From: Planctomycetes bacterium GWF2_41_51
GTDB lineage: Bacteria; Planctomycetota; Phycisphaerae; Sedimentisphaerales; UBA12454
Assembly (NCBI GenBank): GCA_001825665.1
Contig: MHXZ01000110.1
Location: 1-34,750, forward strand
Length of the DNA stretch: 34,750 nt
Direction of reading: 5' to 3'
Position 1 is the first letter of the stretch, and every line of letters starts with the position of its first letter. This document shows, piece by piece, positions 1 to 22,170 of this stretch. Under the pieces are notes generated by a model that was not told the origin of the DNA, made no database searches, and saw only the letters and a list, made by a program, of their open reading frames with translations. A program made the position numbers and the translations under genes.

Positions 1-132
1 GCACTTTGCGCCGCCATCTGCACAGGCAATTACGATATTTTTAACTGTTTCGAAATCGCTATGATAGAAAACGGGAATCAGACCGATTTTCTTCATCGCG
101 GTTAAAACTTCAAGCCTTGAATGTTTCGCCAT
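1..132 (-). CDS. KDPG/KHG aldolase family protein (N-terminal part)
   Basis: Only the first 44 codons are in the window; the gene runs off the left edge. The N-terminus reads MAKHSRLEVLTAMKKIGLIP followed by VFYHSD and a helix ending ACADGGAK. This matches the start of the 2-dehydro-3-deoxyphosphogluconate / 4-hydroxy-2-oxoglutarate aldolase family, a class I aldolase TIM barrel. Known members cleave 2-keto-3-deoxy acids to pyruvate and an aldehyde. The Schiff-base lysine lies beyond the edge and cannot be checked. The ATG has a GAGG ribosome site about nine bases upstream, and the gap to the preceding gene is 9 bp, so it is the last visible gene of the operon that begins at 9111. An aldolase in this position suggests that the operon ends in carbon-carbon cleavage (inference). 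Confidence 0.72.
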   Translation of the reverse strand, partial: MAKHSRLEVLTAMKKIGLIPVFYHSDFETVKNIVIACADGGAKC

Positions 133-141
133 TATCTAACC

Positions 142-1212
142 TCAATCCCAAATGCTATTATCATCGTTAAATGGTGAAGAAACAGCTTTACCATATTTTG
201 CTGACTGATACATAGCTAAAACAATTTCAAGTGTTGGACGAACCGATTTGACAGGTATTACAACTTCTTTATTATTTTTTATTGAATCAATCATATCCTG
301 AACAACAGCTGTATGGTCAACATGCCCGAAATCCGCTGCTCCGCCGGCACCAGTTGCCTGTGAAGCGTTGCCAATATTTCTTATTTCTGCATCTTCTGGT
401 TTTTCATCCTGAAATTTCCAGGTATGAACTTTTTCGCCAACCATAATGGCCGTGCCTTTTGTTCCATTGATTTCTATTCTTATATCCGTACCCGGCCAAA
501 GAGCCGTAGAAAGCTGAATCACACCTTTTGCACTATTGGCATATTCGATATGAGCAATCACATCGTCTTCAAGCTTTATGCCGGGATGGCCGATATTGGT
601 CATTTTCGCTTCCACTTTTGCCGCAGGTCCTGCCAAATATTGAAGTAAATCGATATAATGAAATCCCTGTGCAACTGTTACTCCGCTTCCGCTTTTTTGC
701 TGCCCTCTCCAGCCGCTGCTTGTATAATAATCCTGTCCTCTGTACCATTTCATATACGCATCGGCATGAAGCAGTTTGCCAAATCTTCCGCTTTCAATTG
801 CATTCTTTATAGCCTGTATAGCTTTTCTAACTCGGCATTGAACAAAGCAGCCAAACTTGACATTTGCCTTTTGACAAGCTTCAATCATTTCATCTGTTTC
901 GCCAAGACTCATGGCCGGCGGTTTTTCAGTCAAAATATGCTTGCCTGCCTGAGCTGCTTTAATAACTGTATCACGATGCAGATGGTTTGGCGTAGCAACG
1001 CAAACAACATCAACATTTTTATCTTCGAGCATTTGCTCAAGCGTCTCAAAAGTTTTAGCATTAAAATCTTGAGCAGTATTTTGAGCTTTTGCTTTATCTA
1101 TATCGAAAATACCAACAGCATATCCGCCTTTGGCATCTCTGATTGCTTTTAAATGAAAAGGAGCTATAAGACCTGCCCCAACTACCCCAAATCCAAATTG
1201 CTTATCCATCAT
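142..1212 (-). CDS. Gfo/Idh/MocA family oxidoreductase
   Basis: A predicted NAD(P)-dependent sugar or cyclitol dehydrogenase of 356 residues, the usual length for the family. The Rossmann motif GVVGAGLIAPFH is at residues 9-20, and the family signature EKP at 96-98 within HILTEKPPAMS. A GFHYIDLLQYLAG segment in the C-terminal domain carries the usual active-site His/Asp. Two ATG codons are adjacent at the start; a GAGG ribosome site sits better for the second (1209), so the protein may begin one residue later. It lies 8 bp after the zinc dehydrogenase and 9 bp before the aldolase gene. Substrate unknown. It is one of three Gfo/Idh genes in the operon, which suggests successive oxidation or epimerisation of one sugar skeleton (inference). 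Confidence 0.9.
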   Translation of the reverse strand: MMDKQFGFGVVGAGLIAPFHLKAIRDAKGGYAVGIFDIDKAKAQNTAQDFNAKTFETLEQMLEDKNVDVVCVATPNHLHRDTVIKAAQAGKHILTEKPPAMSLGETDEMIEACQKANVKFGCFVQCRVRKAIQAIKNAIESGRFGKLLHADAYMKWYRGQDYYTSSGWRGQQKSGSGVTVAQGFHYIDLLQYLAGPAAKVEAKMTNIGHPGIKLEDDVIAHIEYANSAKGVIQLSTALWPGTDIRIEINGTKGTAIMVGEKVHTWKFQDEKPEDAEIRNIGNASQATGAGGAADFGHVDHTAVVQDMIDSIKNNKEVVIPVKSVRPTLEIVLAMYQSAKYGKAVSSPFNDDNSIWD

Positions 1213-1220
1213 TTACCTCA

Positions 1221-2255
1221 TTAAGGAATTAATATTGCCTTTAACGCTTTTAATTTTTCTATATCTTCAAAAACTTTTTGCCAGTTCTCAAGCGGTTCTT
1301 TGTGAGTTATTAATTTTTCAGCAGGAACTCTGCCACTGCTTATAAGACTTATTGCTTTATCCCAGGAAGTATAAAAAGTCGAAAGATTGAAAACGACCGT
1401 TGCGACTTTAAACGCAAATTTGTCCCAATTGATATTTACGGTCTTTCCACCAGTAAGCCCTACAACACAGACTTTGCCCATCTTTTTTAGAAAATCGGGA
1501 ACCATTTCTATGGCTTTCGGCGCTCCGCTGCATTCAACAACCACATCAGCGCCCAAACCGTTCGTCAAATCCATAATAGCTTTAACAGGATCGGTCTCTG
1601 CAATGTTAATTAAATTATTAAGGCCTAATTCTTTTGCTTTAGCAAATCTTAACTCAACATCGCCGGGCGTACCGATTATCGCAACATCTCTTGCCCCTAC
1701 AGCTTTTGCCGCCATAGCTGCAATCAGGCCAATCGGCCCCGGCCCCTGAACAACAACAAAATCGCCAGCCTGAATTCCTGTTCGCTCCAATAAATCTGTA
1801 ACAATATTTGCGGTCGGCTCGACAACTGCCGCCTGCTCCCAAGTCATACTATCAGGGATTTTGTGAAGCAATTTTTCGGGATAACAGATGTATTCAGCCA
1901 TCCCCCCATCGATCCCCCATCCTGGGGATCGTTTGGCTGAGCAAATTTGAATATTACCAGTTCTGCAAAGATAGCAATTTCCGCAAGCCTTGGTATGCGG
2001 CTCGGCTACAACCTTATCGCCAACTTTAAATGTCTTGCAATCTTTGGCGGTTTCAATAATTTCACCTGTAAACTCATGCCCTAAAACTACCGGCGGCCAA
2101 TATGGAAAGCAATCATTTTTAACGTGAATATCAGTTCCGCAAATTCCACATGCAGCTATTTTAATTTTTACTTCACCCGATGATGGAATCGGCTCAGGAA
2201 TATCTCTGATTTCAATATTGCCAATTCCCTTTTGTGTTTTTACTAATGCTTTCAT
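1221..2255 (-). CDS. Zinc-dependent medium-chain alcohol/polyol dehydrogenase
   Basis: A 344-residue MDR-family dehydrogenase resembling sorbitol, L-threonine and L-idonate dehydrogenases. Catalytic zinc ligands are visible in CGICGTD (Cys37) and GHEFTGE (His60, Glu61). The structural zinc lobe has four cysteines at residues 91, 94, 97 and 105. The NAD-binding motif follows as GPGPIGLIAA near residue 171. It would oxidise a secondary hydroxyl of a polyol, sugar acid or hydroxy amino acid. The start ATG directly abuts the TAG stop of the upstream deacylase gene, which implies translational coupling. Substrate cannot be told from the sequence; context points to a sugar-derived intermediate. Confidence 0.9.
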   Translation of the reverse strand: MKALVKTQKGIGNIEIRDIPEPIPSSGEVKIKIAACGICGTDIHVKNDCFPYWPPVVLGHEFTGEIIETAKDCKTFKVGDKVVAEPHTKACGNCYLCRTGNIQICSAKRSPGWGIDGGMAEYICYPEKLLHKIPDSMTWEQAAVVEPTANIVTDLLERTGIQAGDFVVVQGPGPIGLIAAMAAKAVGARDVAIIGTPGDVELRFAKAKELGLNNLINIAETDPVKAIMDLTNGLGADVVVECSGAPKAIEMVPDFLKKMGKVCVVGLTGGKTVNINWDKFAFKVATVVFNLSTFYTSWDKAISLISSGRVPAEKLITHKEPLENWQKVFEDIEKLKALKAILIP

Positions 2256-3479
2256 CTAACTTCCGGAAAAATTCATAGAAAAAACTAATAATGCCTTTGC
2301 TGCATCAACTATATCTGACAATTTAATATGCTCATCTTTTGAATGAGCTACTTTTAATGTGCCGGGACCATAAACAACAGTTGGAATATTGTTCTGATTA
2401 TTATAAAACCATGCATCGCAGCTTGCCGGCATAGCATCAATTTCACTGTTTATATTTGTTGATTTATTCGCCTTAAGCAGTTCCTGGACAAATTTTTGTT
2501 GTGGATCTGTCACGCTGCAATTATGACGATAAGTGAAAGTTAATTTGAAATCATCGCTGCTGAAATTATTTAACAATATCTGATTCATTTCAGAAACAAT
2601 CTCTTCTTTAGTTTTGTTCGGCAAAAATCCAAGCACGCCTTCGAGCACAGCAACACTCGGAGCTGATGCAGGCCAATTACCAGCCTGTAATTTACCAAAT
2701 GTGATAGGCATCGGATTTTCATATTTATCAAATAATGCGATTCCTTTGGAATTTGTCAAAAGCTCTTTATGATACTGCGTAAGTGCGGTTATAGCTGTAT
2801 GCGCCATTAAAAGTGCGCTGCGTGTTTTGCCTGCCTGGCCGCTATGGCCTGCTTTGCCAAAAAATTCGATCTTAAACCAGACAGCACCTCTAATTGATGT
2901 GAGAACATTAAATTCAGTAGGCTCCAGTACAATGCAGCAATCTGCCTTTTCATTGGTTCTTGCCATAGCAAGACTTCCATTGCCTCCATTTTCTTCCTCA
3001 ACCACAAGATGAGCAATCAAGTCACAAGGAAGATTTATCTTAAATTCTTCAAGCAACTTGAATAAGAAATAAATTGTTGCAACAGAACCTTTGTCATCGC
3101 AACTGCCTCTGCCGTAGAATATCCCATTCTCAAATTTTCCGCTGAACGCATCCTGCATTCCCTCAGAAACAGGCACAACATCGGTGTGAGCATTTAAAAG
3201 AATTTTCTTTCCAGAAGGTTTTCCCTTACATACAACTCTAAGATTAAACCTGCCATTATAAGTTATATCAGGTATGGGACTGCTGTAATCATCATCTTCT
3301 TTAATTTTGTCAGAGAGAAAAATTTTTTCAACCTGCGCATTCTTTATTTTACCGAATTGTTCATATAAGAATTCCATTGCCTGATGTTCTTGGCCGCAAG
3401 TCGATGGAAACTGCAATAGCTTTGACAGGAAATCGCATATTTCAGGCAGCAATTTATCTATAGTTTTATTATCAATCAT
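2256..3479 (-). CDS. M20 family metallopeptidase / deacylase (ArgE/DapE-like)
   Basis: A 407-residue enzyme of the M20 di-zinc hydrolase family, whose members remove acyl groups from amino acids or cleave small amide bonds. Metal and catalytic residues are visible: NAHTDVVPV (His98, Asp100), the bridging Asp128 in GRGSCDDKGS, the catalytic Glu pair 161-162 in VEEENGG, and a late His in KVAHSKDEH. The dimerisation domain sits between. No signal peptide is seen, so it should be cytoplasmic. Its stop overlaps the zinc dehydrogenase start and its own ATG overlaps the TGA of the upstream aminotransferase gene by 4 bp. Placement after the aminotransferase and before the dehydrogenases suggests that it deacylates an N-acyl amino intermediate (inference). 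Confidence 0.88.
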   Translation of the reverse strand: MIDNKTIDKLLPEICDFLSKLLQFPSTCGQEHQAMEFLYEQFGKIKNAQVEKIFLSDKIKEDDDYSSPIPDITYNGRFNLRVVCKGKPSGKKILLNAHTDVVPVSEGMQDAFSGKFENGIFYGRGSCDDKGSVATIYFLFKLLEEFKINLPCDLIAHLVVEEENGGNGSLAMARTNEKADCCIVLEPTEFNVLTSIRGAVWFKIEFFGKAGHSGQAGKTRSALLMAHTAITALTQYHKELLTNSKGIALFDKYENPMPITFGKLQAGNWPASAPSVAVLEGVLGFLPNKTKEEIVSEMNQILLNNFSSDDFKLTFTYRHNCSVTDPQQKFVQELLKANKSTNINSEIDAMPASCDAWFYNNQNNIPTVVYGPGTLKVAHSKDEHIKLSDIVDAAKALLVFSMNFSGS

Positions 3480-4798
3480 AATTTTATCGTAGTTAAAACC
3501 TTTTCCATTATCTCAAGACTTTCATCAGCCTGTTCTTTATTTATTACAAGAGGTGGCGCAACCCTCAAAACATTTCCGTACATGCCAACAGAACCAACTA
3601 AAAGGCCATTTTCAGCAAATTTATTGATTATTGGTTTAATAAGTTCAGATGCAGGGTCTTTAGTTTTCTTATCTTTTACAAATTCAATTCCCATCACAAG
3701 TCCCATACCTCGAACATCGCCGAGATAAGCACATTTTTCCGCAATTTTATTCAAGCCTGCTTTTATGTACTCACCCATTTTATATGAGTTTTCAACAAGC
3801 TGCTCTTTTTCAAATATTTCGAGAACGGCAGTTACCGCTGCGCTTGCGACAGGATTGCCGCCATAAGTGCTGCTCATTTCGCCTTTGGCTAAACAGGAAA
3901 AAATTTCAGTTGTAGAACAAACAGCTGAAACCGAAACGCCGCTGCCAATACCTTTGCCAAGGACTACTATATCAGGCTCAAGGTTTTCATGTTCCATAGC
4001 CCACATTTTGCCCGTTCTTCCAAAAGAAGCCTGCACTTCATCGAGCGTAAAAAGTAATCCCTTGTCGCGCGTCCATTTGCGAAGTCTTGTCAGCCACCCT
4101 TTTGGCGGGAAAATAAAACCGCCCGCACCCTGGTATGGCTCAATTATAACACCTGCCAGAGAACCAGTCGAATTTGTAGCAATGATAAAATCAAGATAGT
4201 CAAAATATTTTTTGAAATCATCGCTTGGATCGCACAAACCGAGTGGGTCTCGATAAGGATTTGGAAATGGCGCTTTTATTGAGCCTGGAATCGTCGGGCC
4301 ATATTTTTTCTTAGGTCCTGCAAGTCCGCCAACCGATGCCGCACCCGGCGTTCTTCCATGAAATCCGCCTTCAAAGCTTATTATTTCAAAATTGCCGCTC
4401 TTGCGTTTCATTAATCGAAGTGATGCTTCAATTGCTTCGGAACCTGTTGAAAGGAAGAAACATTTATCCAGATGTTTCGGCAGCGCATTGACCAATTTTT
4501 CCGCCGCTTCAATTCGATAAGTATTTGCACATTCGTAATTATTGAGCAAATCTTCCGAAGCCGTTTGTGTTGCCCTTACAAGATGAGGATGACAATGCCC
4601 GACATTTGTTACAAGCACACCGCTTGTCCAATCTATAAATCTATTTCCATCAACATCCTCGACGATGCAGCCTTGTGCCTTTTTCCAAACCACAGGCGCC
4701 TGATAGCCGACAACATCCGCTTCATATTTATGCCATTTCTCGATTAGTTCTTTTCCTTTTAATCCAGGAAGCGAACCATTTACCATTGCATATTTCAT
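3476..4798 (-). CDS. Class III PLP-dependent aminotransferase
   Basis: A 440-residue fold-type I enzyme of the class III group (4-aminobutyrate, acetylornithine and diaminobutyrate aminotransferase relatives). Visible features are the phosphate-binding STGSEAIEASLR (118-129), the SFEGGFHGRT loop (141-150), the PLP-contacting DEVQ at 253-256 and the Schiff-base lysine in GKGIGSG (Lys282). Such enzymes usually move a terminal or omega amino group to 2-oxoglutarate or pyruvate. It overlaps the deacylase gene by 4 bp and follows the hydroxyacid dehydrogenase by only 2 bp. Together with the deacylase it could remove a once-acylated amino group from a sugar-derived compound. The exact amino donor is unknown. 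Confidence 0.9.
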   Translation of the reverse strand: MKYAMVNGSLPGLKGKELIEKWHKYEADVVGYQAPVVWKKAQGCIVEDVDGNRFIDWTSGVLVTNVGHCHPHLVRATQTASEDLLNNYECANTYRIEAAEKLVNALPKHLDKCFFLSTGSEAIEASLRLMKRKSGNFEIISFEGGFHGRTPGAASVGGLAGPKKKYGPTIPGSIKAPFPNPYRDPLGLCDPSDDFKKYFDYLDFIIATNSTGSLAGVIIEPYQGAGGFIFPPKGWLTRLRKWTRDKGLLFTLDEVQASFGRTGKMWAMEHENLEPDIVVLGKGIGSGVSVSAVCSTTEIFSCLAKGEMSSTYGGNPVASAAVTAVLEIFEKEQLVENSYKMGEYIKAGLNKIAEKCAYLGDVRGMGLVMGIEFVKDKKTKDPASELIKPIINKFAENGLLVGSVGMYGNVLRVAPPLVINKEQADESLEIMEKVLTTIKL

Positions 4799-4800
4799 AA

Positions 4801-5796
4801 TTATTTACCCCTGCGAATTTCATTAACAACACATCTTGCATCCTTGCCTTCAATCCCGGCAAGAATATCATCAACTATACTTTTCCGTATTTCCAAGCCG
4901 GCTTCCTCGGATGCCCAGCCGATATGCGGAGTCAAAATTACATTATCCATTCCAAAAAGCTCAAAGTCCGGCTTTGGCGGCTCAACATCAAATACATCAA
5001 TCGCGGCACCTGCAATTTTTTTATCCTGTAATGCTTTAGCCAGCGCCGGCGTATCCACCATCGGCCCGCGTGAAGTATTTACTATATAAGCCGTCAGCTT
5101 CATCAGGCTCAATGTATCTGCGTTTACGATATGTTTTGTATCATCTTTCAAAAGAGTATGGATTGTAATAAAATCCGATTCCTTGAACAAAGTTTCCTTA
5201 TCAACCCATTCGATATTTTTAATAGCAGCTTTTCTCTTCTCACTCAAATACGGATCGCAGCCGATAATTCTGAATCCAAAATGCTCCAGCTTGCGATGAA
5301 CGCGAGAACCGATTCGCCCGACGCCAAGAATGCCAAGAGTTTTGCCATGCATCCTGTAAATAGGAAATAGATTGCTAAAATCCCATTGCCCGGTCCTGCT
5401 TGATTCATCAAGTGTCTTTCTGCTCCATACAACTTTTCTGGCACATGCGAAAATCAATGCTATAGCGTGCTCGGCCACATCTTCTTTGCAATAATCAGGC
5501 TGATAGGCAAACTGAATTCCATATTTGGTACAAGCCTTAACATCAACATTATCATAACCAATTCCATGTCGAATGATTAGTTTGCAATTTTTAAGTTTCG
5601 AAATCAGTGATTCTGTAAATTTTACCATATTCACAACGATAATATCCGCATCGCTGATTTTGGCTAAAACTTCTTCTTCCGGCCTGAACTTCAATTGATA
5701 AACTTCAAAATTCACACCACCCACACTTGTTTTTTTAAGCTGCTCTGCTTCCCAATCTAGATTTTCTTCAATATAATCTGTAACTACTACTTTCAT
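4801..5796 (-). CDS. D-isomer-specific 2-hydroxyacid dehydrogenase
   Basis: A 331-residue NAD-dependent dehydrogenase of the D-2-hydroxyacid family (phosphoglycerate, glyoxylate and CtBP-like members). The dinucleotide motif GILGVGRIGS lies near 155-164. The catalytic triad is complete: Arg243 in NTSRGPMVD, Glu272 in DVFDVEPP and His291 in LTPHIGWAS. Substrate-side residues RHGIGYDNVD precede the NAD domain. It would interconvert a 2-oxo acid and a D-2-hydroxy acid. The ATG overlaps the TGA of the upstream Gfo/Idh gene by 4 bp, so it is translationally coupled. There is no C-terminal ACT domain, which argues against regulated serine biosynthesis and for a catabolic role. Confidence 0.9.
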   Translation of the reverse strand: MKVVVTDYIEENLDWEAEQLKKTSVGGVNFEVYQLKFRPEEEVLAKISDADIIVVNMVKFTESLISKLKNCKLIIRHGIGYDNVDVKACTKYGIQFAYQPDYCKEDVAEHAIALIFACARKVVWSRKTLDESSRTGQWDFSNLFPIYRMHGKTLGILGVGRIGSRVHRKLEHFGFRIIGCDPYLSEKRKAAIKNIEWVDKETLFKESDFITIHTLLKDDTKHIVNADTLSLMKLTAYIVNTSRGPMVDTPALAKALQDKKIAGAAIDVFDVEPPKPDFELFGMDNVILTPHIGWASEEAGLEIRKSIVDDILAGIEGKDARCVVNEIRRGK

Positions 5797-6887
5797 TTTT
5801 CAACCTTTGTCCATTTATTCTGCTGATCTGATTTATAAATTGCTTCAACTACGTTTAAAACTGAAACCGCCTCGTCTCCTGTTATGAATGGTTGTTTATT
5901 TTTTAATATCGCATCAATGAAACCTTCAAGATACGCCTTACCCATATAGCCGGAGTAGCCTCTAACTTTATCTAATTGGAAAGACAATTTTCTGGCCGCA
6001 GCTCCTGATAATTTTTCGGAATCACTGTAAACTTCCAATATATCCGTTTGTGCCGCTGCGCCCGAGCCTGCTTCTCCTTCATATTTTGGACAATAGCTGA
6101 TTACGCCTTTTGTGCCTTTAATGCCGATATAAAGGTCTCTGCCATTGGGAAAACAATCCGGCACAATATAACTTACCGATAAAACCCCAACGGTTCCTGC
6201 ATTAAATTTAAGCATCGCAACAGAGCTATCTTCAATATCATATTTGTCGGATGTTTTTATATTTCGCGCACATACTTCATCGATGCTGTCGCCAAGTAAA
6301 TAATGCAGCAAGTCAATCCAATGTACACCAAGGTTATACATCGGCCCGCCGCCTGATTTTTCTTTTTGAAGCATCCATTCAGAATTGCCGACTATATATC
6401 TTTCGACTCTGCCTGCCGCCAATCTTGCTTCAACTGATACGATTTTACCGACAAAGCCATCATCGATTATTTTTTTCATCGCTTCTATTACCGGATGATA
6501 CCGCCAGCAATAACAGGTCGTCAGTTTTACATTATTTTTTTGGGCAGCTTTTATAACTTTCTTTACAGATTCTGAACTTTCCGCTATTGGCTTTTCAACC
6601 ATCAAATGAATACCTTTTTCGGCACATTTAACAGCCGCATCAGCACAATCGCAATGCGGCAGAAATATCGCAGCAATATCGTTTTTTTCACTTGTGAGCA
6701 TTTCATCGAGATTAGAATATCCTTTTAAATTAAAATCTTTGCAGAATGTTTCAAGCACTTGGGAGTTTTGCTCATAAGCGCAAATAACTATTGTCTGCTT
6801 ACAATCTTCAAATAAAGGCATATAAGCCCTCGGATGAAGATGCCTTAAACCGATAATTGCCACGTTTAATATTTTATTTTTTTTCAT
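5793..6887 (-). CDS. Gfo/Idh/MocA family oxidoreductase with altered glycine motif
   Basis: A 364-residue member of the family. It keeps the EKP signature at 98-100 (HLMVEKPIAES) and the active-site segment NLGVHWIDLLHYLLG. Its N-terminal nucleotide-binding turn, however, reads IIGLRHLHPRAY instead of the usual GxGxxG. Similar His-containing variants occur in divergent family branches, so cofactor use may differ (inference). It is coupled by a 4-bp overlap to the 2-hydroxyacid dehydrogenase and lies 2 bp after the upstream Gfo/Idh gene. The next gene product is a longer paralogue with an intact glycine motif, so the pair could catalyse different steps. Confidence 0.88.
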   Translation of the reverse strand: MKKNKILNVAIIGLRHLHPRAYMPLFEDCKQTIVICAYEQNSQVLETFCKDFNLKGYSNLDEMLTSEKNDIAAIFLPHCDCADAAVKCAEKGIHLMVEKPIAESSESVKKVIKAAQKNNVKLTTCYCWRYHPVIEAMKKIIDDGFVGKIVSVEARLAAGRVERYIVGNSEWMLQKEKSGGGPMYNLGVHWIDLLHYLLGDSIDEVCARNIKTSDKYDIEDSSVAMLKFNAGTVGVLSVSYIVPDCFPNGRDLYIGIKGTKGVISYCPKYEGEAGSGAAAQTDILEVYSDSEKLSGAAARKLSFQLDKVRGYSGYMGKAYLEGFIDAILKNKQPFITGDEAVSVLNVVEAIYKSDQQNKWTKVEK

Positions 6888-6889
6888 AT

Positions 6890-8074
6890 TTATCCTATTA
6901 ATGGTACGTTGGTTTCCTTGCCTTTAAGCTGATCCGAAAGATATGCCGCGTAAGTTGTTGCGGTGGTATCGATCGCAAGTTCAATTCCAGACTGCGGAAT
7001 GGCGCCTGTTGAAATACAATTCATAAAATCCTGCATTTCATATTGATAACCAACGGTAATATTTTCATCAGGAGCAGCATTCGACCAGCCTTCTTTTGTG
7101 CTGCATTTTTCCACAACGTAAATATCTTCAAATTGCTGATTACGTGGATTATATGTATCAACTATATCAATCGGACTGATATTGCAGCGTGTCCTGTGAT
7201 TATTGGCAAACACTTCTACATAATCATACAACCCGCCCAATACTATCTCGCTGGTCAAAACATCCGCAACAGTTCCATCTTCAAAAGTAACGTGAATAAA
7301 ACCATAATCTTCCACATCATGGTAATCGGTTCTGATAAAACCTTTATCTTCATAATTTGGCAATCTTGTTATCTGATGCGTTCTGGCTGTAACAGTTTTC
7401 GGACGAATTGGTTTGCCGTTTCTGTTTATCCCTTCAATTCGCTTTAAATAAAGCATCGCTCCCAAAGGATGAACGCCTTTGCCAATCAACGAACCGCCGC
7501 CTGCATACCGCCAAATGCCATAAACAGCCGATGCCGAACCATTATGCGATTCATCACCAACCATTCGCAAAATCTGGGCATTGGTCTTTTCAATGATCTC
7601 ACGTTCTTTCTGAACACTCGGCGTGTAAACAAAATTTTCGGCATAACCAAAAAACACTTTATTTTTTTTCACAGCCGTTGCGATTTGGTTGAGAGTAATA
7701 CAAACACTATCAAGCATTCTCTGCTTGTCATCTTCATCGCCGTGATCAATTTTACTCGCATTTTCTGCGCCAAAATAACCTGTAAGAGGTTTTTCACAAA
7801 TTATACCTTTACCCATCTTGGCTGCCATTATTATGGTTTCGCTATGAACATAAGGCGGAGAGCATATATCAATAACGTCGACATTTTTTATCAGCGACTC
7901 GGCATCTTCAAAAACAGCAACGCCATATTGTTTGCCAAATGATTCTCTGCTTTCTTTGCGAAGACTCGTAACTCCTGAAATCTCCACTTCAATGCCGTAA
8001 ATGCGTTTGAGGCACTCATAATGAAATTTGCCCGCGAAACCTGCTCCAATTATGCCGACTTTTATTTTCTTCAC
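6890..8074 (-). CDS. Gfo/Idh/MocA family oxidoreductase
   Basis: A 394-residue member, slightly longer than usual. The Rossmann motif VGIIGAGFAGKFH is at 6-18 and EKP at 94-96 in IICEKPLTG. A GKGVHPLGAMLYL segment carries the C-terminal-domain His. An insertion rich in acidic residues (about 105-120) follows the signature. The start is GTG at 8074, giving MKKIKVGIIG; an ATG a few bases upstream is out of frame and the ribosome site is weak (AAGAG). It follows the epimerase-like gene by 11 bp. Substrate unknown; the family oxidises ring hydroxyls of sugars, cyclitols and their amino derivatives. Confidence 0.88.
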   Translation of the reverse strand: MKKIKVGIIGAGFAGKFHYECLKRIYGIEVEISGVTSLRKESRESFGKQYGVAVFEDAESLIKNVDVIDICSPPYVHSETIIMAAKMGKGIICEKPLTGYFGAENASKIDHGDEDDKQRMLDSVCITLNQIATAVKKNKVFFGYAENFVYTPSVQKEREIIEKTNAQILRMVGDESHNGSASAVYGIWRYAGGGSLIGKGVHPLGAMLYLKRIEGINRNGKPIRPKTVTARTHQITRLPNYEDKGFIRTDYHDVEDYGFIHVTFEDGTVADVLTSEIVLGGLYDYVEVFANNHRTRCNISPIDIVDTYNPRNQQFEDIYVVEKCSTKEGWSNAAPDENITVGYQYEMQDFMNCISTGAIPQSGIELAIDTTATTYAAYLSDQLKGKETNVPLIG

Positions 8075-8085
8075 GACATATTCTC

Positions 8086-9111
8086 TTAATATTTGCCATC
8101 TTGCGTTTCAAAATGTGTCGGCTTACCGCTTGTCTGCCCGCCCTTTTGAACCCAATCCGCAATCCATTCAATAATCCTTCCAATAGGAACCGATGGATTT
8201 CCAAATATGCTGTTTGCCTTAGCGGCATTATTCAAATAACCTTTGCCATTTTCTGTTCCTGTTATTTTAGCTTCCCTGCCGAGCAATTGACCAAAACGGT
8301 TCGCAATCCAGCGAACAGATAAAATCTCAGGCCCTGTAATATTTAATACCGAAGCCGGACTCGATGCACAATCGAAACTTCTTAAAACCTGGTCGCAACA
8401 ATCTCCCTGCCAGATACCATTCATAAAACCTGTTGTTACATCGACCGGCTCACCGTTCAATACCTTCGTTGCGATATCAACCAAAACGCCATATCTCAAT
8501 TCAAGTGCGTAATTAAGTCTGATTTGAACAACCTTTTCACCTTTTTCCGCCGCGTAGTAATCAAACATTCTCTCTCTGCCCAAACAGCTCATCGCATACT
8601 CACCAATAGGATTAGGTGTATCGGTTTCCGTTGAACCGCCGGTATATACATCGACAACCGGATAAACACACCCTGTTGAAAAAACTGCAATCTTAGATTG
8701 AGTAAAAACATCCGCCACATTATGCGGAATCATTACGTTAATTGCCCATGTAATCCATTCCGTCCCACTCGAGCCAAACTTTCGCCCTGCCATGTAAACA
8801 ATATTTTTAACCTTCGGAAGATTATTTACTTCTTTCCAATCAAGCATATTGCATTGGATTGTGGAAATGCCCTGCTTCTTTAAGTCGTCCAATGGCAGAA
8901 CATCAACAGCAATAACATCTTTTTTGGCTTTTGCCTGATCCACAGCCCTCTTTGCCATCATCGTCATTGTAGGCCCTATTTTACCACCGGCTCCGAGAAT
9001 CATTATATCCCCATCGAGGTTTTTTACATATTCCACCAAACCGGCCGACGGTCTCGAAAGCAATTCTTCTAACTGTTCTACATTCTCAATTCTTTGAGGC
9101 AAATTAAGCAT
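8086..9111 (-). CDS. NAD-dependent epimerase/dehydratase-like (extended SDR), first gene of operon
   Basis: A 341-residue extended short-chain dehydrogenase. The nucleotide motif ILGAGGKIG is at 38-46, VYMAGR at 105-110 and the active-site serine strand FSTGCVYP at 144-151. The place of the catalytic YxxxK is occupied by YAMSC (Tyr172, Cys176), so the usual lysine is missing. The longest frame begins with TTG at 9138; I chose the ATG at 9111 because GGAG stands 8 bases upstream of it. This is the first gene of the operon, 121 bp from the divergent tetR-type gene. It may epimerise or dehydrate a sugar acid; with the lysine lost, the chemistry is uncertain. Confidence 0.85.
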   Translation of the reverse strand: MLNLPQRIENVEQLEELLSRPSAGLVEYVKNLDGDIMILGAGGKIGPTMTMMAKRAVDQAKAKKDVIAVDVLPLDDLKKQGISTIQCNMLDWKEVNNLPKVKNIVYMAGRKFGSSGTEWITWAINVMIPHNVADVFTQSKIAVFSTGCVYPVVDVYTGGSTETDTPNPIGEYAMSCLGRERMFDYYAAEKGEKVVQIRLNYALELRYGVLVDIATKVLNGEPVDVTTGFMNGIWQGDCCDQVLRSFDCASSPASVLNITGPEILSVRWIANRFGQLLGREAKITGTENGKGYLNNAAKANSIFGNPSVPIGRIIEWIADWVQKGGQTSGKPTHFETQDGKY

Positions 9112-9157
9112 TTCTAAACTCCAAAAAACAAAATCCAACTATATGTTTGCTTTTACA

Positions 9158-9186
9158 AGATTAACATATTGGCTTTTAAAATGCAA
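9158..9186 (-). promoter_or_regulatory. Candidate promoter of the catabolic operon
   Basis: On the minus strand a -35-like TTGCAT (9186-9181) and a -10-like TAATCT (9163-9158) are separated by 17 bp, about 45 bp before the ATG at 9111. Each hexamer departs from consensus, so this is a moderate call. The -35 and spacer are covered by the palindrome at 9169-9186, which fits repression by the neighbouring regulator. Confidence 0.4.
9169..9186. promoter_or_regulatory. Palindromic operator candidate for the TetR-family regulator
   Basis: An 18-bp near-palindrome of the form TTG-NN-TTTTAAAA-NN-CAA, symmetric at 14 of 18 positions. It lies between the divergent operon and tetR-type gene and overlaps the -35 region of the operon promoter. 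TetR-family dimers bind palindromes of about this size and normally sit next to their own gene. Binding is inferred only. Confidence 0.45.
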
Positions 9187-9194
9187 CTATTTAT

Positions 9195-9223
9195 TTGCTT
9201 TTGTGCAGGATTTTTCGTAATAT
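9195..9223 (+). promoter_or_regulatory. Promoter of the tetR-type gene
   Basis: On the plus strand -35 TTGCTT (9195-9200) and -10 TAATAT (9218-9223) are exactly 17 bp apart. The start codon at 9233 follows the -10 by nine bases, so the transcript would begin within a few bases of the ATG. No Shine-Dalgarno sequence precedes that ATG, consistent with a leaderless mRNA. Confidence 0.55.
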
Positions 9224-9232
9224 GATGAAATT

Positions 9233-9874
9233 ATGAAAAGAAAGAATGAAGCTATTATTTTACCTGTTCAGCAGCGTTCAGTTAAAAGCAAAGAGAGTAT
9301 TCTCGCTGCCGCAGAAACTGTTTTCGCACAAAAAGGCCTTCATGGCGCCAGAATAGACGAAATATCACAACTTGCAAATGTAAATAAACAAAGGATTTAC
9401 GCATATTTCGGCTCAAAGAAGAAACTTTATCGACAGGTTTTGCTTAAAGTATATTCGTTAGCGTCAACCAATGAAAAAATCTTATCTTTAACTGAAAAAG
9501 ATGTCCCTGATATGACTCTTTTGATAATAGAAAGCTTTTTCGATTTTCATCAAAAGAATCCTCAATTTTGGCGCCTTTTAGCGTGGGAAAATCTCAATGG
9601 CGGCAAAAGTTTAAACACCGACGACTGGCAAAAAATACGTTCTTCGTACATCGCCCATATTCAAAAATTATACCAGATAGGACAGCAAAAAGGACACTTT
9701 AATAAAAATCTGGATTTTTCAACTTATATTCTTACCATATTTTCAGTAACATATTTTTATTATTCAAATCAGTTAACTATTTCACATCTTTTGAATTTGG
9801 ATTTAGAATCCAAAACAATGAGACAACAAATCACTCAACAAATAAATTCGATTTTTCTAAGTAAATGCAGATAA
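9233..9874 (+). CDS. TetR/AcrR family transcriptional regulator
   Basis: A 213-residue one-domain regulator. The N-terminal helix-turn-helix spans about residues 20-65: SILAAAETVFAQKGLHGARI leads into the recognition helix, with YAYFGSKKKLYRQVL closing the DNA-binding domain. The rest is helical and of the divergent ligand-binding type (FFDFHQKNPQFWRLLAWE). It is transcribed away from the nine-gene operon with 121 bp between start codons, the usual layout for a repressor of its neighbour; the ligand is probably a pathway intermediate (inference). There is no ribosome site before the ATG, and the promoter -10 ends nine bases upstream, so translation may be leaderless. It is the only intact plus-strand gene in the window. 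Confidence 0.92.
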   Translation: MKRKNEAIILPVQQRSVKSKESILAAAETVFAQKGLHGARIDEISQLANVNKQRIYAYFGSKKKLYRQVLLKVYSLASTNEKILSLTEKDVPDMTLLIIESFFDFHQKNPQFWRLLAWENLNGGKSLNTDDWQKIRSSYIAHIQKLYQIGQQKGHFNKNLDFSTYILTIFSVTYFYYSNQLTISHLLNLDLESKTMRQQITQQINSIFLSKCR

Positions 9875-9999: not shown

Positions 10000-10932
10000 C
10001 TATCCGCCAATATGCAATGCAGCCAAAAATATTGCAAGTATTATAAAAACCACTATCCAGCAGCATATAAACCCTATGGTATCCTGCTTATCCCATTTAT
10101 GAAATTCCCAACTTGAATTCGGAAACAATTTAAGATAATCGAATCTATGTGGTTGAGAATAACTTTTTTCAATTTCAATTGCATCGAGCTGTTGGTTGGA
10201 TTGAACAGGCGTTTTCATTTTAACATAAAATCTGTCTAACATAATTTTTTCATTAGGTTTTGTAAAAAAGCTTACTATAAATAATATAATAAACGGGAAA
10301 ATCCCATCGAACAAAAAGCGAGTTGTCATCAATCCTGCCGGACTCAATGAATGAACATTCATCCCCAGTTTACTCATGATATAAACTTCTACACTGAAAA
10401 CTCCTATTCCAACTAATTTGGAATCTTTATTATATGGGTCTATATGGGCGACAGATTCAAAAAAAATTGATACAGGTTCAATTGCTAAGGTTTTTTGAAT
10501 TTTTTGTCCTTCCTTTTCTGCTAATCCAGCTACGACATCTTTTTGGGTCGCAATAAGGTTGATATTATTATATTGTTTGTCCGTGCAAACAGTTAATGAT
10601 TCAGATGTTCGCATTCCTGGTATTGCTGGAATAAGCCATGGCGCCAGTGTAATTACCATAATACATGCAACAACTTCAACAAGCACTGCCATTCTCGTCA
10701 GGCGGCGCCATATAAAAATTAAAAGAATAGGTGCTCCAAATGTTACAGATACCGCAATAATAAATTTCAAAAGAGCAATCACGCCGGTGGCATATAAAGC
10801 AACAAATATACCTAATATCAAAACAGCTGCTACTGTTAATCTTCCAACCCAAATGTAATGTTTTTCAGATCTGTTCGTTATAATTACAGAATACAAATTA
10901 CGAACAAACAATGCGCTGATACTTAGAGACAT
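10000..10932 (-). pseudogene. Sodium:solute symporter, 3' half only (broken gene)
   Basis: This 310-residue frame is the C-terminal half of an SSS-family symporter. It begins inside the transmembrane segment that precedes a cytoplasmic loop (ALFVRNLYS, then SEKHYIWVGRLT, an element typical after TM8 or so) and runs through several hydrophobic helices to a terminal one ending LAALHIGG. Intact relatives are about 600 residues, and the first half is absent. At the 5' side the sequence changes abruptly, within a few bases of 10930, to a transposase gene on the other strand. It has no promoter or ribosome site of its own. It is not a copy of the intact neighbour at 11761-13551; the two differ clearly in sequence. 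It may once have been the transporter for the catabolic operon (inference). Confidence 0.8.
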
Positions 10933-11472
10933 GGGTGTGATTTCTTTTCAATCGAGCTTTTTACTCCAAGAGGCCTTGTGCGGTACATGGTGTTATTCGC
11001 GATCAATCTTGCAACTCGTAAAGTTGAAATACTCGGCATAAAATCGAATCCAGATGGCATTTGGATGGAGCAAATAGCAAGAAATATGGTTGATTATGAA
11101 GAAGGATCTCTTAAAGGAAAAAAATATCTTATACATGACAGAGATCCACTATATACAGCGGCTTTCAGTGCCATCATAAGATCAGAAGGTATCGAGTGCG
11201 TGAAACTTCCACCACATAGTCCAAATCTAAATTCCTTTCCTGAACGATTTGTAAGAACTGTTAAAGAAGAATACCTCAATCATTCGATCCTGTGTTCGGA
11301 ACAGCAACTCAGATATGTGCTTTCAAAATTCCTTGATTATTATCATACCGACCGAATTCATCAAGGACTTGGTAGAATAATTGAGCCAATGCACGAGGAC
11401 AATACCGGTGATATATTCTGTGTTGAAAGATTGGGCGGACTATTGGAGTCTTACCACCGTAAAGCCGCCTGA
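10930..11472 (+). pseudogene. DDE integrase-core transposase, N-terminally truncated
   Basis: The frame is open from the stop at 10924-10926 and homology begins about CDFFSIELFTPRG. It carries the rve integrase-core residues: first Asp in CDFFS, second Asp in LIHDRDPLY, and Glu in NSFPERFV, followed by the typical C-terminal RIHQGLG and ERLGGLLESYH motifs. The catalytic core therefore looks intact, but the N-terminal helix-turn-helix half is missing. An internal GTG at 10978 gives a 164-residue frame, unlikely to be functional. The family is common in Planctomycetota and Acidobacteriota genomes as stand-alone transposases. I could not identify terminal inverted repeats. Confidence 0.8.
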
Positions 11473-11760: not shown

Positions 11761-13551
11761 TTATAACAGCTTCTTTGATCCCCAGAGTTTAATCAGTATC
11801 ACGGCAGTTACTGCCGCTAAACAGGTCAGTACCGTTGCCATAAATAATTTTTCATAAATCCAGAAACCCGTCGCAAAAATAGCACTGTAAACCAAAACAC
11901 ATCCTATAAACATACACAATATTCCCATCGGCAAATTAGGCTGAGATGCCTGACTTTCAATAGCCAAACCTTCCTTTTCCGCCGCCTTGACAACTCTTTT
12001 CCAGCCGGGACCGCCGGGATTTATCAGTTTTACAAAAGCTCTTAAAGTCTTATCATCCGTCGGACGCGTGAATATTGTAACAACCACCCAGGAAACAGTT
12101 GTTATCGCTACTCCAATCACTAACTGCTTCCATTGCTCAACCCGTTCAAAACCGAGGGCAGGATGGATAAACTCAAAATAAATCGCCACAAAAAAAGATA
12201 CCACCATAGCCGTGATTTCGCTGAAAGCATTGATTCTCCACCAGAACCAGCGAAGCAAGAATAATAATCCCGTGCCGGCACCTATCTGCAGCAGGATATT
12301 AAATGCCCTTAGCGCATTGCCAAGCCATAATGCGATTGCACTTGCGACTACCATCATCATAACCGTTGATATACGCCCTACACGAACCAGATGTTTTTCG
12401 CTTGCCTCAGGCCTGACAAAACGCCTGTAAAAATCATTAACCACATAAGAAGAACCCCAGTTCAAATGCGTCGACATAGTTGACATATATGCCGCGATAA
12501 GAGATGCCACAACCAAACCGAGTATGCCGTGCGGAAGGAATGTCAGCATCGCAGGATAGGCAAGGTCATTCTTTATTATAGAAGGATCAAGATGCGGGAA
12601 TGCGGTCGTCAAAGACTGAAGATCCGGAAAAATCACAAGCGAAGAAAGAGCAACGATAAACCATGGCCATGGCCTAAGCGCATAATGAGCTATATTAAAG
12701 AAAAGAGTCGAGCCGGTAGCGTGTTTTTCGTTTTTGGCAGCAAGCATACGCTGAGCAATATAACCGCCGCCCCCGGGTTCTGCACCCGGATACCAAACAC
12801 TCCACCATTGAACCGCAAGCGGAACTATCATCAGGGATATGACCATGTCTGTATTATTAAAATCAGGCAGAAAGTTCAGTTTTCCTCTGACCGCGGCATT
12901 AGTAATAAGATTGTGGATACTTCCGATTGACGGCTGTTTAATTGCAAAAAAAGCAGCCAGAACAGAACCTGCCATTGCGACTAAAAATAATAAAAAGTCC
13001 GTAAATAATACGCCGCGAAGACCTCCCATAGTACTGAATACGACCGTTACGGTCGCTGCGACAAGGACGCTTTTGATCGGACCGAAATTGAACATAACTC
13101 CGCCTATTTTGATTGCCGCCAGCGTAACGCTTGCCATTATCATAATATTAAAAAACACACCAAGATACAAAGCTCTGAAACCACGAAGAAATGCCGCCTC
13201 TTTGCCGCTGTAACGGATCTCGTAAAATTCCACATCGGTCATAACACCGGAACGTCGCCAAAGTTTGGCATATATAAAAACGGTAAGCATTCCCGTCAGG
13301 AGAAATGGATACCAGACCCAGTTGCCTGCTATGCCGTGTTGTCTCACAATATCTGTAACCAAGTTAGGGGTATCTGCCGAAAAGGTCGTAGCGACCATAG
13401 AAAATCCAAGGAGCCACCACGGCATTGTTCTGCCGGAAAGAAAGAACTCCGAGGAACTCTTGCCGGCTCGCCTGGAAACAGCAATACCTACAATCAATGA
13501 AATCACAAAAAAGAATATTATTACAGACCAGTCGATACAATGAAGAAACAT
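11761..13551 (-). CDS. Sodium:solute symporter (SSS family)
   Basis: A 596-residue integral membrane transporter with about 13-14 hydrophobic segments. The N-terminus (IDWSVIIFFFVISLIVGIAV), the family hallmark SSSEFFLSGRTMPWWLLG at about 33-50 and the ATTFSADTPNLV segment are typical of sugar- and amino-acid-type SSS carriers. A cytoplasmic loop NDFYRRFVRPEASEKHLVRV matches the corresponding loop of the family. It would import a small organic solute with sodium across the inner membrane. GGAG stands 6 bases before the ATG. It is flanked by long intergenic regions and so probably transcribed alone. Substrate is not predictable from sequence; neighbours handle amino-sugar-like compounds. Confidence 0.92.
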   Translation of the reverse strand: MFLHCIDWSVIIFFFVISLIVGIAVSRRAGKSSSEFFLSGRTMPWWLLGFSMVATTFSADTPNLVTDIVRQHGIAGNWVWYPFLLTGMLTVFIYAKLWRRSGVMTDVEFYEIRYSGKEAAFLRGFRALYLGVFFNIMIMASVTLAAIKIGGVMFNFGPIKSVLVAATVTVVFSTMGGLRGVLFTDFLLFLVAMAGSVLAAFFAIKQPSIGSIHNLITNAAVRGKLNFLPDFNNTDMVISLMIVPLAVQWWSVWYPGAEPGGGGYIAQRMLAAKNEKHATGSTLFFNIAHYALRPWPWFIVALSSLVIFPDLQSLTTAFPHLDPSIIKNDLAYPAMLTFLPHGILGLVVASLIAAYMSTMSTHLNWGSSYVVNDFYRRFVRPEASEKHLVRVGRISTVMMMVVASAIALWLGNALRAFNILLQIGAGTGLLFLLRWFWWRINAFSEITAMVVSFFVAIYFEFIHPALGFERVEQWKQLVIGVAITTVSWVVVTIFTRPTDDKTLRAFVKLINPGGPGWKRVVKAAEKEGLAIESQASQPNLPMGILCMFIGCVLVYSAIFATGFWIYEKLFMATVLTCLAAVTAVILIKLWGSKKLL

Positions 13552-13828: not shown

Positions 13829-14758
13829 CTAGTGCATTTCAACGGAACATGAACCAATTGCTGGTCTGTAAAAATTAAACTGTACATTTGGATGATCGGC
13901 AAGCAAAGACATTGGAACTGAACTATCTGGAATTTTTTTGCCAATCATAAGCGTTGTAAGTCTCATTCCGAACGGATTATCATGTGTACCTGCGTGCCAG
14001 ATAGAAACTTTTTCAGCCTTCCATGTTTGAAGCGGACCAACAGTTATCGCTTTTGTTGGAATACCTGTAACTACCCCGCCGCCGCTGGTTCGAGCGTTTT
14101 GCATTATCGTTACAGGATGCAAATCTACAACTCGAGTTGAAAGCTGCCTGTATTCCTTTGGAGTGGGAGGATTGTCCGTATATCTGCCTTCTCGTTTTAC
14201 AGGATCATTGAACGCCCAGTGCTTTATATCGCCCTGCCCGCCCTGCATTACAGCGCATCTTACAGCTTCCCAGCTTTTGACATACTTTGCTGTATCAGCC
14301 TTTGGGAAATGAAGATTCTTATCAGGCATTCTCAATTTAGAAATTATCTTATTAAAGCACATCTCCCTGTCTGCTTTTTCAAATGACAATGGATGCTTTG
14401 CAGGTGCTTCTCTGCCATCAATAAACCATTCATCCATCCCCCAGAAATGGCAATTTTTCAAATTAAGTTCAAGCTCATTAACTAATCTTGCAACCAGCGG
14501 TAACTGTTCAGTTGGGCCAATTGGGCCGCATATACCGACAGGGTTATCCGCGGTTGCTTGTTTCCAGGCATTTATATATTCAAGTGCCTCCGCAAGATAA
14601 AAATCCTCAAGAGTATCATAAAACTTTACAGTAAAACCTTTTCTGCTCATCTGAAGCATGTCTTCTGCTGTCAGTTTTGCAGCATCGTTCAGAATTTTAT
14701 CATCAAGTGTTGTGTAATCCCACCAATCCGGTGCAAGCATACTAATTTTACGAGTCAT
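13829..14758 (-). CDS. NagB-like glucosamine-6-phosphate deaminase homologue, divergent
   Basis: A 309-residue member of the NagB/6-phosphogluconolactonase superfamily, with about 30 extra N-terminal residues compared with E. coli NagB (266). The FWGMDEW segment (105-111) matches the NagB region carrying the isomerisation base Asp72, here Asp109. [14 protein letters not shown] (173-186) aligns with GGVGNDGHIAFNEP: the His is kept (His180), the catalytic Asp141 position is Ile178 with Asp177 next to it, and Glu148 is Asp185. It would convert an amino-sugar phosphate to a ketose phosphate plus ammonia, but activity is uncertain. GGAG lies 10 bases before the ATG. A PIG-L deacetylase remnant ends 18 bp upstream, a pairing that fits amino-sugar degradation. 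Confidence 0.8.
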
Positions 14759-14776
14759 CTTATTTTTTCTCCGTTA

Positions 14777-14959
14777 CTAAATCTTTAAGTTCTGTTTTCC
14801 GGCATATTTACAATTGATTTTAAAACCTCTTTTTTGGGCAAAACGTTTCATAGACTCAATATATTCATCCATACCATGATGGGCCATTAGCCAGTCTCTC
14901 TGACTTTTATAGCAGCAGAGCATCTTTTCTTTCGTATCGATCAATATAATTTCAATGAG
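14777..14959 (-). pseudogene. PIG-L (LmbE-type) deacetylase, C-terminal remnant
   Basis: Reading the minus strand from 14959 to the TAG at 14777 gives about 60 codons containing MLCCYKSQRDWLMAHHGMDE and then YIESMKRFAQKRG and KYAGKQ. The SQRDW...HHGMDEY pattern and the following helix are typical of the C-terminus of PIG-L family GlcNAc deacetylases. The N-terminal metal-binding half (the HPDD motif region) is absent: a stop lies immediately upstream at 14960-14962, then AT-rich non-coding sequence. The usual AEGF-like end is altered. I read it as a truncated, non-functional remnant. It stands directly before the NagB homologue, so the ancestral unit probably deacetylated and then deaminated an amino sugar. 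Confidence 0.72.
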
Positions 14960-14960
14960 C

Positions 14961-14975
14961 TACAAATATTTTGTA
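14961..14975. promoter_or_regulatory. Inverted repeat TACAAA-TAT-TTTGTA
   Basis: A perfect inverted repeat with 6-bp arms and a 3-bp centre, just upstream of the PIG-L remnant and about 200 bp before the NagB-homologue start. Its size and symmetry suit a dimeric repressor site. The rest of 14976-15066 is AT-rich and has no gene; I found no well-spaced promoter pair in it. Confidence 0.35.
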
Positions 14976-15066
14976 CCAAACGCGAAGTATTAAACTCATT
15001 TAATATTTTTCATATATAATAATTTTTATTTTACATATTATAACTAATTATTGATGTCTATTAATA

Positions 15067-15099
15067 AAAAGTTTTAAAAATATATTTTTTAAAACTTTT
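15067..15099 (-). terminator. Rho-independent terminator after alanine racemase
   Basis: A perfect inverted repeat with 14-bp arms (15067-15080 and 15086-15099) and a 5-nt loop begins 9 bp after the alr stop codon. On the minus strand the stem is followed by a T-run (TTTTTATTAAT). The stem is almost all A/T with one G/C pair per arm, so it is weak by base composition, but length and position fit a terminator. Confidence 0.6.
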
Positions 15100-15107
15100 C
15101 TATATCA

Positions 15108-16262: not shown

Positions 16263-16403
16263 TAATTTACCAAAAATGTTATCAATTTTTTATGTCAAAT
16301 TGTTTTTAAAGGCTGATAAGATAAATTCAGGCTTTGGGCAACAGGCCCAGATGTGCATTTTCCCTTTATATATTTAAACCTCGTTGCAATGCCTTGTCCC
16401 AGC

Positions 16404-17531: not shown

Positions 17532-17535
17532 AACT

Positions 17536-18780: not shown

Positions 18781-18825
18781 AATAATTTTCCTTTATAACG
18801 TAGATTTTAAAAAGAGAACTCAATT

Positions 18826-19716: not shown

Positions 19717-19717
19717 T

Positions 19718-20575: not shown

Positions 20576-20635
20576 ATGTTTTCCTTAATCATTAAAAGTT
20601 AAGCACGACACATATTGAGTTTTAATATATTAAAT

Positions 20636-21907: not shown

Positions 21908-22170
21908 GTTTGATTTTCCTGATTTATACAATTTTCTTCAGCTTCACCTTCGTCGCCATTTTACTCATTCCAAATATCAGGTTTTCATAGTTGTTCCACA
22001 ACTTATTGTCCTTCAAAAAAATGAAGCGATATGGCCCCGTTGCAGTCCAATTAAAGAATTGCATTTCGCCGACTTTACTACTTTTTTTGTGTGTAGATAA
22101 ATTGCAAATAGCGAACTCTGTCTCACGCGTTATCATATCTCGGTCAAACACTTGTTTCTGAAGTCATAAA

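Follow-up and report, generated by a model that had tools for sequence, protein, structure and literature searches.

A conserved eight-gene planctomycete operon with a tentative role in the breakdown of an amide-bearing amino sugar acid

Planctomycetes are recyclers of complex polysaccharides, and, to our knowledge, few of their many clusters of Gfo/Idh oxidoreductases have a known substrate. The D-glucosaminate pathway combines a pyridoxal phosphate (PLP)-dependent ammonia-lyase with a 2-keto-3-deoxy-6-phosphogluconate (KDPG) aldolase. The myo-inositol operon of Thermotoga maritima (TM0411–TM0416) oxidises a polyol stepwise via keto intermediates (PMC5931981), while WlbA is a dehydrogenase of UDP-diacetamido-mannuronate biosynthesis (PMC10622841). 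Here, we analysed a 34,750-nt stretch of DNA (hereafter, the window), which is one whole contig (G000:C110) of the planctomycete assembly GWF2_41_51 (4.83 Mb, 138 contigs). It carries eight complete minus-strand genes at 142–9111, with a ninth gene present as a partial stub at the contig start (Table 1). The eight encode a short-chain dehydrogenase-fold protein (SDR), three Gfo/Idh enzymes (GfoA, GfoB and GfoC), a D-2-hydroxyacid dehydrogenase (HADH), a class III PLP enzyme (AT3), an M20-family deacylase (M20) and a zinc dehydrogenase (ZnDH), and the stub is the start of a KDPG-type aldolase gene. Our preferred reading, held tentatively and at somewhat short of even odds, is that the operon, under TetR control, degrades an amino sugar acid carrying an amide by means of oxidation, hydrolysis of the amide, PLP chemistry and cleavage of a 2-oxo acid, with no phosphorylation in the visible part.

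The genes are tightly packed (aldolase–GfoC, 9 bp; GfoC–ZnDH, 8; ZnDH–M20, 0; M20/AT3, −4; AT3–HADH, 2; HADH/GfoB, −4; GfoB–GfoA, 2; GfoA–SDR, 11) and have a GC content of 40.4 %, compared with 41.7 % for the rest of the contig. An earlier note, made from the letters of this DNA, described a nine-gene operon with gaps of 11 bp or less and several 4-bp overlaps. Its nine family assignments are all right and its gap limit is exact (spacings −4 to +11); however, there are only two overlaps (M20/AT3 and HADH/GfoB), and although eight genes are complete, the ninth is a stub of 44 codons (132–1). The SDR start at 9111 is backed by relatives, many of which share the same initial Met.

The whole set recurs in a Brocadiaceae metagenome-assembled genome (MAG), G441, in which SDR-GfoA-GfoB-HADH-AT3 run up to a contig end and M20-ZnDH-GfoC run from another contig end. 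The eight genes share 54–75 % identity with those of the window despite a GC content of 55 % vs 40 %, and would form one operon of the same order if the two contig ends adjoin. Retention of the eight-gene order in another genome excludes chance, in agreement with the earlier description of a single co-conserved unit. Under strict thresholds, GfoB and AT3 each had an orthologue in 1 of 392 sampled genomes of the phylum, this being the window's own, and a search for AT3 in the order of G441 matched G441 alone. As these orthologues are rare elsewhere, the eight-gene set seems to travel together. Among 72,556 plasmid records, no relative of AT3, M20 or GfoC exceeded 60 % identity. GfoA was rejected as a marker of the operon: relatives occur in 15 other genomes of the phylum, and none of the 12 neighbourhoods fetched shows such a cluster. 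Two stand-alone GfoA relatives (63–65 % identity; L049:9096–10376 and L050:8931–10112) lie outside any such operon, one of them adjoining an apparent beta-keto acid cleavage enzyme (N-terminus judged by eye).

A second, partial copy is present in the same genome on contig C119 (L023:12576–14550; 85 % nucleotide identity), comprising tetR, an SDR gene with one frameshift and a truncated GfoA gene. The ratio of non-synonymous to synonymous substitution rates between this copy and the window is about 0.07 for SDR and 0.11 for GfoA, indicating strong constraint, with both genes under selection for most of their divergence. The C119 copy may be a strain variant or an assembly fault, since a run of N separates tetR from SDR on its contig.

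Upstream of the operon lies a divergent TetR-family gene, whose product is 60 % identical to that of L016, a cluster described below in which tetR is also divergent from SDR, 27–31 % identical to those of the clusters L019 and L107 and 97 % identical to that of C119. The 121-bp gap between SDR and tetR contains a 25-bp direct repeat (9130–9154 and 9178–9202, 48 bp apart) with the core CAACTAWWTRTTTGC. The exact core pattern occurs at four sites only in the 4.83 Mb, two here and two at the C119 operon copy, and L016 has a similar site, CAACTAAATATTTGCATTTT, in its own SDR–tetR gap. Judged from sequence, the repeat is a good candidate for a TetR operator, and the divergent regulator, the repeat and the similar L016 site together suggest local control of the operon; we also infer TetR binding and co-transcription of the genes. 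A genome-wide motif search for co-regulated transporter or kinase genes gave exact matches only at the two operon copies, matches with two mismatches were no commoner than in the control, and promoter and terminator scans stayed at shuffle level.

The first gene product, SDR, has the NAD-binding glycine motif GAGGKIGP and an extended SDR fold. Its AlphaFold model (pLDDT 93) has UDP-sugar 4-epimerases as its nearest folds (template modelling score 0.65–0.70), so the 'epimerase-like' label given earlier is right for the fold; however, the canonical catalytic lysine is absent. In 32/32 aligned sequences, the Tyr of the YxxxK motif is kept while the Lys is replaced by Cys, Ser, Val or Ala (mostly GEYAxSC), and hence, ordinary SDR redox or epimerase chemistry cannot be assumed. 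A different lysine, K111 of a KFG motif (counted from the Met at 9111), does not vary across 29 members.

This SDR family is present in 47/397 sampled genomes of the class, and a protein with an expected 2-oxo-acid-cleaving activity frequently accompanies it. In L016, from a planctomycete of the same taxonomic order as the window's own genome (and on the same contig as L103), the arrangement is SDR-FAH-GfoB with a divergent tetR and an SSS transporter directly after GfoB. Locus L019, from a MAG labelled Neomarinimicrobiota, has SDR-FAH-GfoB, an HADH remnant and a divergent TetR-type gene, and L107 has SDR-FAH with a divergent tetR. In many other planctomycetes, a DapA-superfamily protein follows SDR, and K184, the expected Schiff-base position, is invariant in the 16 DapA-like proteins aligned. 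SDR was thus rejected as a marker of the operon, its partners being mostly DapA-like. These DapA-like proteins (L018:11051–12157 and 15 relatives) have a GCVIPAHPLAL-type start, no NCBIfam match and a weak match to Pfam DHDPS. No DapA-like partner was found in the window's own genome at the threshold used. The window's KDPG-type aldolase could be one more such partner, and a 2-oxo-acid-cleaving partner is plausible, though not fixed.

The aldolase scores 50.6 bits with NF005499 against a cut-off of 275, far below it because only 44 residues are present, and belongs to the operon by position alone. Over 119 bp, the stub matches the end of contig C74 at 99 % identity, and both contigs break off inside the aldolase gene; this is most simply read as a gene in two near-identical copies at which assembly halted. 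No complete KDPG aldolase (PF01081 protein) was found in the assembly. As the contig starts inside this gene, the downstream end of the operon, with any kinase or transporter, lies out of view, and the earlier statement that the operon holds neither cannot be asserted. On C74 (L004:4428–10014), the near-identical aldolase start closes an unrelated operon of an Oxidored_FMN/pyridine-nucleotide oxidoreductase (old-yellow-enzyme) fusion, a short SDR and an FAD-binding protein. There is a nearly even chance that the aldolase is an accidental downstream neighbour and that the true operon is eight genes feeding general metabolism, a variant compatible with our preferred reading and with each alternative below. 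The near-identity of the stub to a gene behind an unrelated flavoenzyme operon and the lack of an aldolase beside GfoC in G441 speak for it; however, just 9 bp separate the stub from GfoC, and the FAH and DapA-like enzymes that accompany SDR elsewhere lead one to expect a cleaving partner. In the genomes G440–G442, none of the aldolases adjoin the clusters. Aldol cleavage as a last step is thus not conserved with the operon, and the proposal of the earlier note that the substrate is cleaved to pyruvate plus an aldehyde acid depends on this stub, absent from the G441 operon, and is not supported.

All three Gfo/Idh proteins possess PF01408 and the EKP motif. PF22725 is above its cut-off in GfoB and GfoC, while the C-terminal match of GfoA (23.2 vs 27 bits) is below it. 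The nearest solved relative of GfoC is represented by PDB entries 3q2k and 3q2i, which we take to be WlbA (158.8 bits, 32 % identity over 337 residues). Together with the intact M20 motifs, this similarity would fit an amide-bearing amino uronate or amino sugar acid; the N-acylated amino sugar or amino uronate named earlier stays the best guess as to substrate, if a tentative one. GfoB in turn scores 123 bits with UDP-GlcNAc 3-dehydrogenase, another biosynthetic enzyme, and with SDR being closest in fold to UDP-sugar epimerases, the operon might instead build an amino sugar or aminocyclitol for a surface glycan or small molecule. We consider this improbable, and less likely than the two alternatives that follow, since the visible genes include no nucleotidyltransferase, glycosyltransferase or acyltransferase, the deacylase and aldolase indicate breakdown, and TetR control and the L016 transporter are typical of uptake and use. 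The setting is catabolic-looking, with its divergent TetR and, in L016, the SSS transporter after GfoB.

Catabolism of an aminocyclitol or inositol derivative was also considered, in which Gfo/Idh enzymes and ZnDH would oxidise a cyclitol ring until a diketone is formed, along the lines of the Thermotoga route of IolG/IolM type, while M20 and AT3 would handle an acylamino substituent. GfoC gives 118 bits with the inositol 2-dehydrogenase model and ZnDH 209 bits with the scyllo-inosose 3-dehydrogenase IolM, but these scores are far under the respective cut-offs of 355 and 450. Moreover, ZnDH, which is nearest to threonine and polyol dehydrogenases, scores higher with L-threonine 3-dehydrogenase models (238 bits, itself below the cut-offs of 380 and 458), and the visible part has no diketo-inositol hydrolase, keto-gluconate epimerase or kinase, making this route unlikely.

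The motifs of M20 are intact (HTDVVP, GRGSCDDKG, EEENG and AHSKDE), and its metal and catalytic residues are kept in G441; its TIGR01910 score of 194 bits lies below the cut-off, as do its best NCBIfam scores throughout. When aligned to gamma-aminobutyrate (GABA) transaminases, AT3 retains a Lys (LGKGIGSG) and an Arg (NVLRVAPPL), presumably for PLP and carboxylate binding, respectively. The gate Glu of the GABA transaminases (EPIQGEGG) is replaced by Ala in both the window (EPYQGAGG) and G441 (EPYQGASG). Among solved structures, AT3 is closest to an alanine/serine racemase, and its near relatives there also include a broad-specificity racemase, isoleucine 2-epimerase and transaminases. A decarboxylase and lyases are likewise found among class III enzymes (PMC8154272), and transamination is therefore just one option for AT3: the fold is that of a class III aminotransferase, as noted earlier, but the protein need not be one. 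The racemase and epimerase relatives and the gate Ala would also suit catabolism of an amino-acid conjugate (an opine, Amadori product or N-acyl amino acid), whereby M20 would free the amino acid, AT3 racemise or deaminate it and the dehydrogenases process the polyol part; the M20 and ZnDH families hold many amino-acid enzymes. We rate this as unlikely, and as marginally less probable than the aminocyclitol route. Six oxidoreductases plus the SDR-fold protein, with three sugar-type Gfo/Idh enzymes, far exceed the need of such a route, and racemases show Asp, rather than Ala, at the gate position.

Under our preferred reading of amino sugar acid breakdown, the substrate would be an amino uronate or amino aldonate with an N-acyl group, or else an amide between a uronate and an amino acid. 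The Gfo/Idh enzymes and ZnDH would oxidise hydroxyls of the ring or chain to ketones, an intermediate would be rearranged or isomerised by the SDR-fold protein, and M20 would hydrolyse the amide. AT3 would then remove the freed amino centre, by transamination or elimination, or racemise it; HADH would interconvert 2-oxo and 2-hydroxy acids, and a 2-oxo-acid-cleaving enzyme would act last (the KDPG-type aldolase here; an FAH hydrolase or DapA-like aldolase in related clusters). The substrate, the order of steps and the direction of the route are all putative. Several observations weigh against this reading. Ring amines are not the usual targets of class III PLP enzymes, which mostly attack terminal or alpha amino groups, and the solved protein closest to AT3 is a racemase; the aldolase is a stub that is not conserved with the operon, G441 having none downstream of GfoC; the G441 synteny spans a contig gap; the set as a whole has no paralogue with a known substrate; and every NCBIfam score of the operon enzymes is below its cut-off, so that the profiles fix no substrate.

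No characterised pathway matching the operon was found in the open-access literature searched, as the earlier note had supposed. A more specific and more doubtful proposal is that the operon encodes an undescribed route for degrading an amino uronic acid with an amide group, such as might come from surface glycans of archaea or bacteria, through three Gfo/Idh enzymes and ZnDH, amide hydrolysis, class III PLP chemistry and SDR-fold enzymes devoid of the YxxxK lysine. New here are the lysine-less SDR family, with its DapA-like and FAH partners elsewhere, an AT3 without the gate Glu and a GfoC closest to WlbA. Since the eight genes form a self-contained set that comes with a regulator of its own and with candidate operators, the system is directly testable, and the lysine-less SDR family would gain a function if one member were solved.

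Table 1. Features of the operon and its immediate surroundings in the window
Feature	Position	Strand	Evidence or relatives
KDPG/2-keto-4-hydroxyglutarate (class I) aldolase, first 44 codons only	1..132	-	NF005499, 50.6 bits
GfoC, Gfo/Idh/MocA oxidoreductase	142..1212	-	Nearest solved relative WlbA (3q2k/3q2i); 62 % identity in G441
ZnDH, threonine-3-dehydrogenase/sorbitol-dehydrogenase-like zinc dehydrogenase	1221..2255	-	69 % in G441
M20, ArgE/DapE-family metallo-amidase/deacylase	2256..3479	-	PF01546/PF07687; 54–55 % in G441
AT3, class III PLP-dependent aminotransferase-fold enzyme	3476..4798	-	PF00202; 72 % in G441
HADH, D-2-hydroxyacid dehydrogenase (phosphoglycerate dehydrogenase/glyoxylate reductase-like)	4801..5796	-	PF02826/PF00389; best solved relative 1wwk; 72 % in G441
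GfoB, Gfo/Idh/MocA oxidoreductase, EKP and GVHWID motifs	5793..6887	-	59 % in G441, 66 % in L016, 59 % in L019
GfoA, Gfo/Idh/MocA oxidoreductase, EKP motif, GTG start	6890..8074	-	67 % in G441
SDR, extended short-chain dehydrogenase/epimerase-fold protein, first gene	8086..9111	-	PF01370
Divergent promoter/operator region between SDR and tetR	9112..9232	.	25-bp direct repeat, candidate TetR operators
TetR-family regulator, divergent from operon	9233..9874	+	PF17938/PF00440
Broken SSS-type Na+/solute symporter, C-terminal half	10000..10932	-	Full-length 44 % relative beside C119 operon copy

Beyond tetR, the broken symporter gene reported earlier was confirmed as the C-terminal half of an SSS protein; an integrase-core fragment (10978–11472) adjoins it, followed by an intact SSS gene (11761–13551). 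A second amino-compound cluster on the minus strand (13829–23166) encodes an alanine racemase, a Gfo/Idh protein, a DegT aminotransferase, an amidohydrolase, a short Gfo/Idh protein, an archaeal-type glutamate dehydrogenase and a protein resembling 2,4-diaminopentanoate dehydrogenase (234 bits against a cut-off of 400), after which comes an intact SSS symporter. A further SSS symporter (32263–34311, minus strand) is 42 % identical to that of the SDR-DapA cluster of MAG GWC2_45_44 (L018).

Finally, the locus shares traits with several known systems. Like DgpA-type glycoside 3-oxidation, it possesses Gfo/Idh enzymes of the 3-oxidation kind, GfoB and GfoC matching DgpA structures weakly, but the window operon has no DgpB/C-type lyase. 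The non-phosphorylating L-rhamnose and L-fucose pathways end in an FAH-family 2,4-diketo-3-deoxy acid hydrolase, reminiscent of the FAH protein in the SDR-GfoB clusters L016 and L019 (that of L016 gives 207 bits with 2,4-didehydro-3-deoxy-L-rhamnonate hydrolase, under the cut-off of 500); in contrast, the window operon has no FAH gene, and those pathways leave no room for M20 or PLP enzymes. As in the D-glucosaminate pathway, a PLP enzyme is combined with a KDPG-type aldolase, there acting on an amino aldonate, whereas the window shows no phosphotransferase system or kinase and has a class III PLP enzyme, three Gfo/Idh enzymes and a zinc dehydrogenase. With the Thermotoga inositol operon, it would share stepwise polyol oxidation and the combination of Gfo/Idh enzyme and zinc dehydrogenase, a pairing that we presume for Thermotoga, also from the IolG and IolM models; however, that operon lacks both M20 and PLP enzymes, the hydrolase and kinase that it does have are unseen here, and the window's homologues score well below the equivalog cut-offs. 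The WlbA/WbpB–WbpE route to UDP-2,3-diacetamido-2,3-dideoxy-mannuronate is similar in employing a Gfo/Idh C3-dehydrogenase of an acetamido-uronic acid, with 3-oxidation followed by PLP chemistry. It differs in that the window has no nucleotide-sugar enzymes; the separate 3-aminotransferase WbpE, presumably of the DegT family, contrasts with the class III enzyme here, and a deacylase replaces the acetyltransferase.

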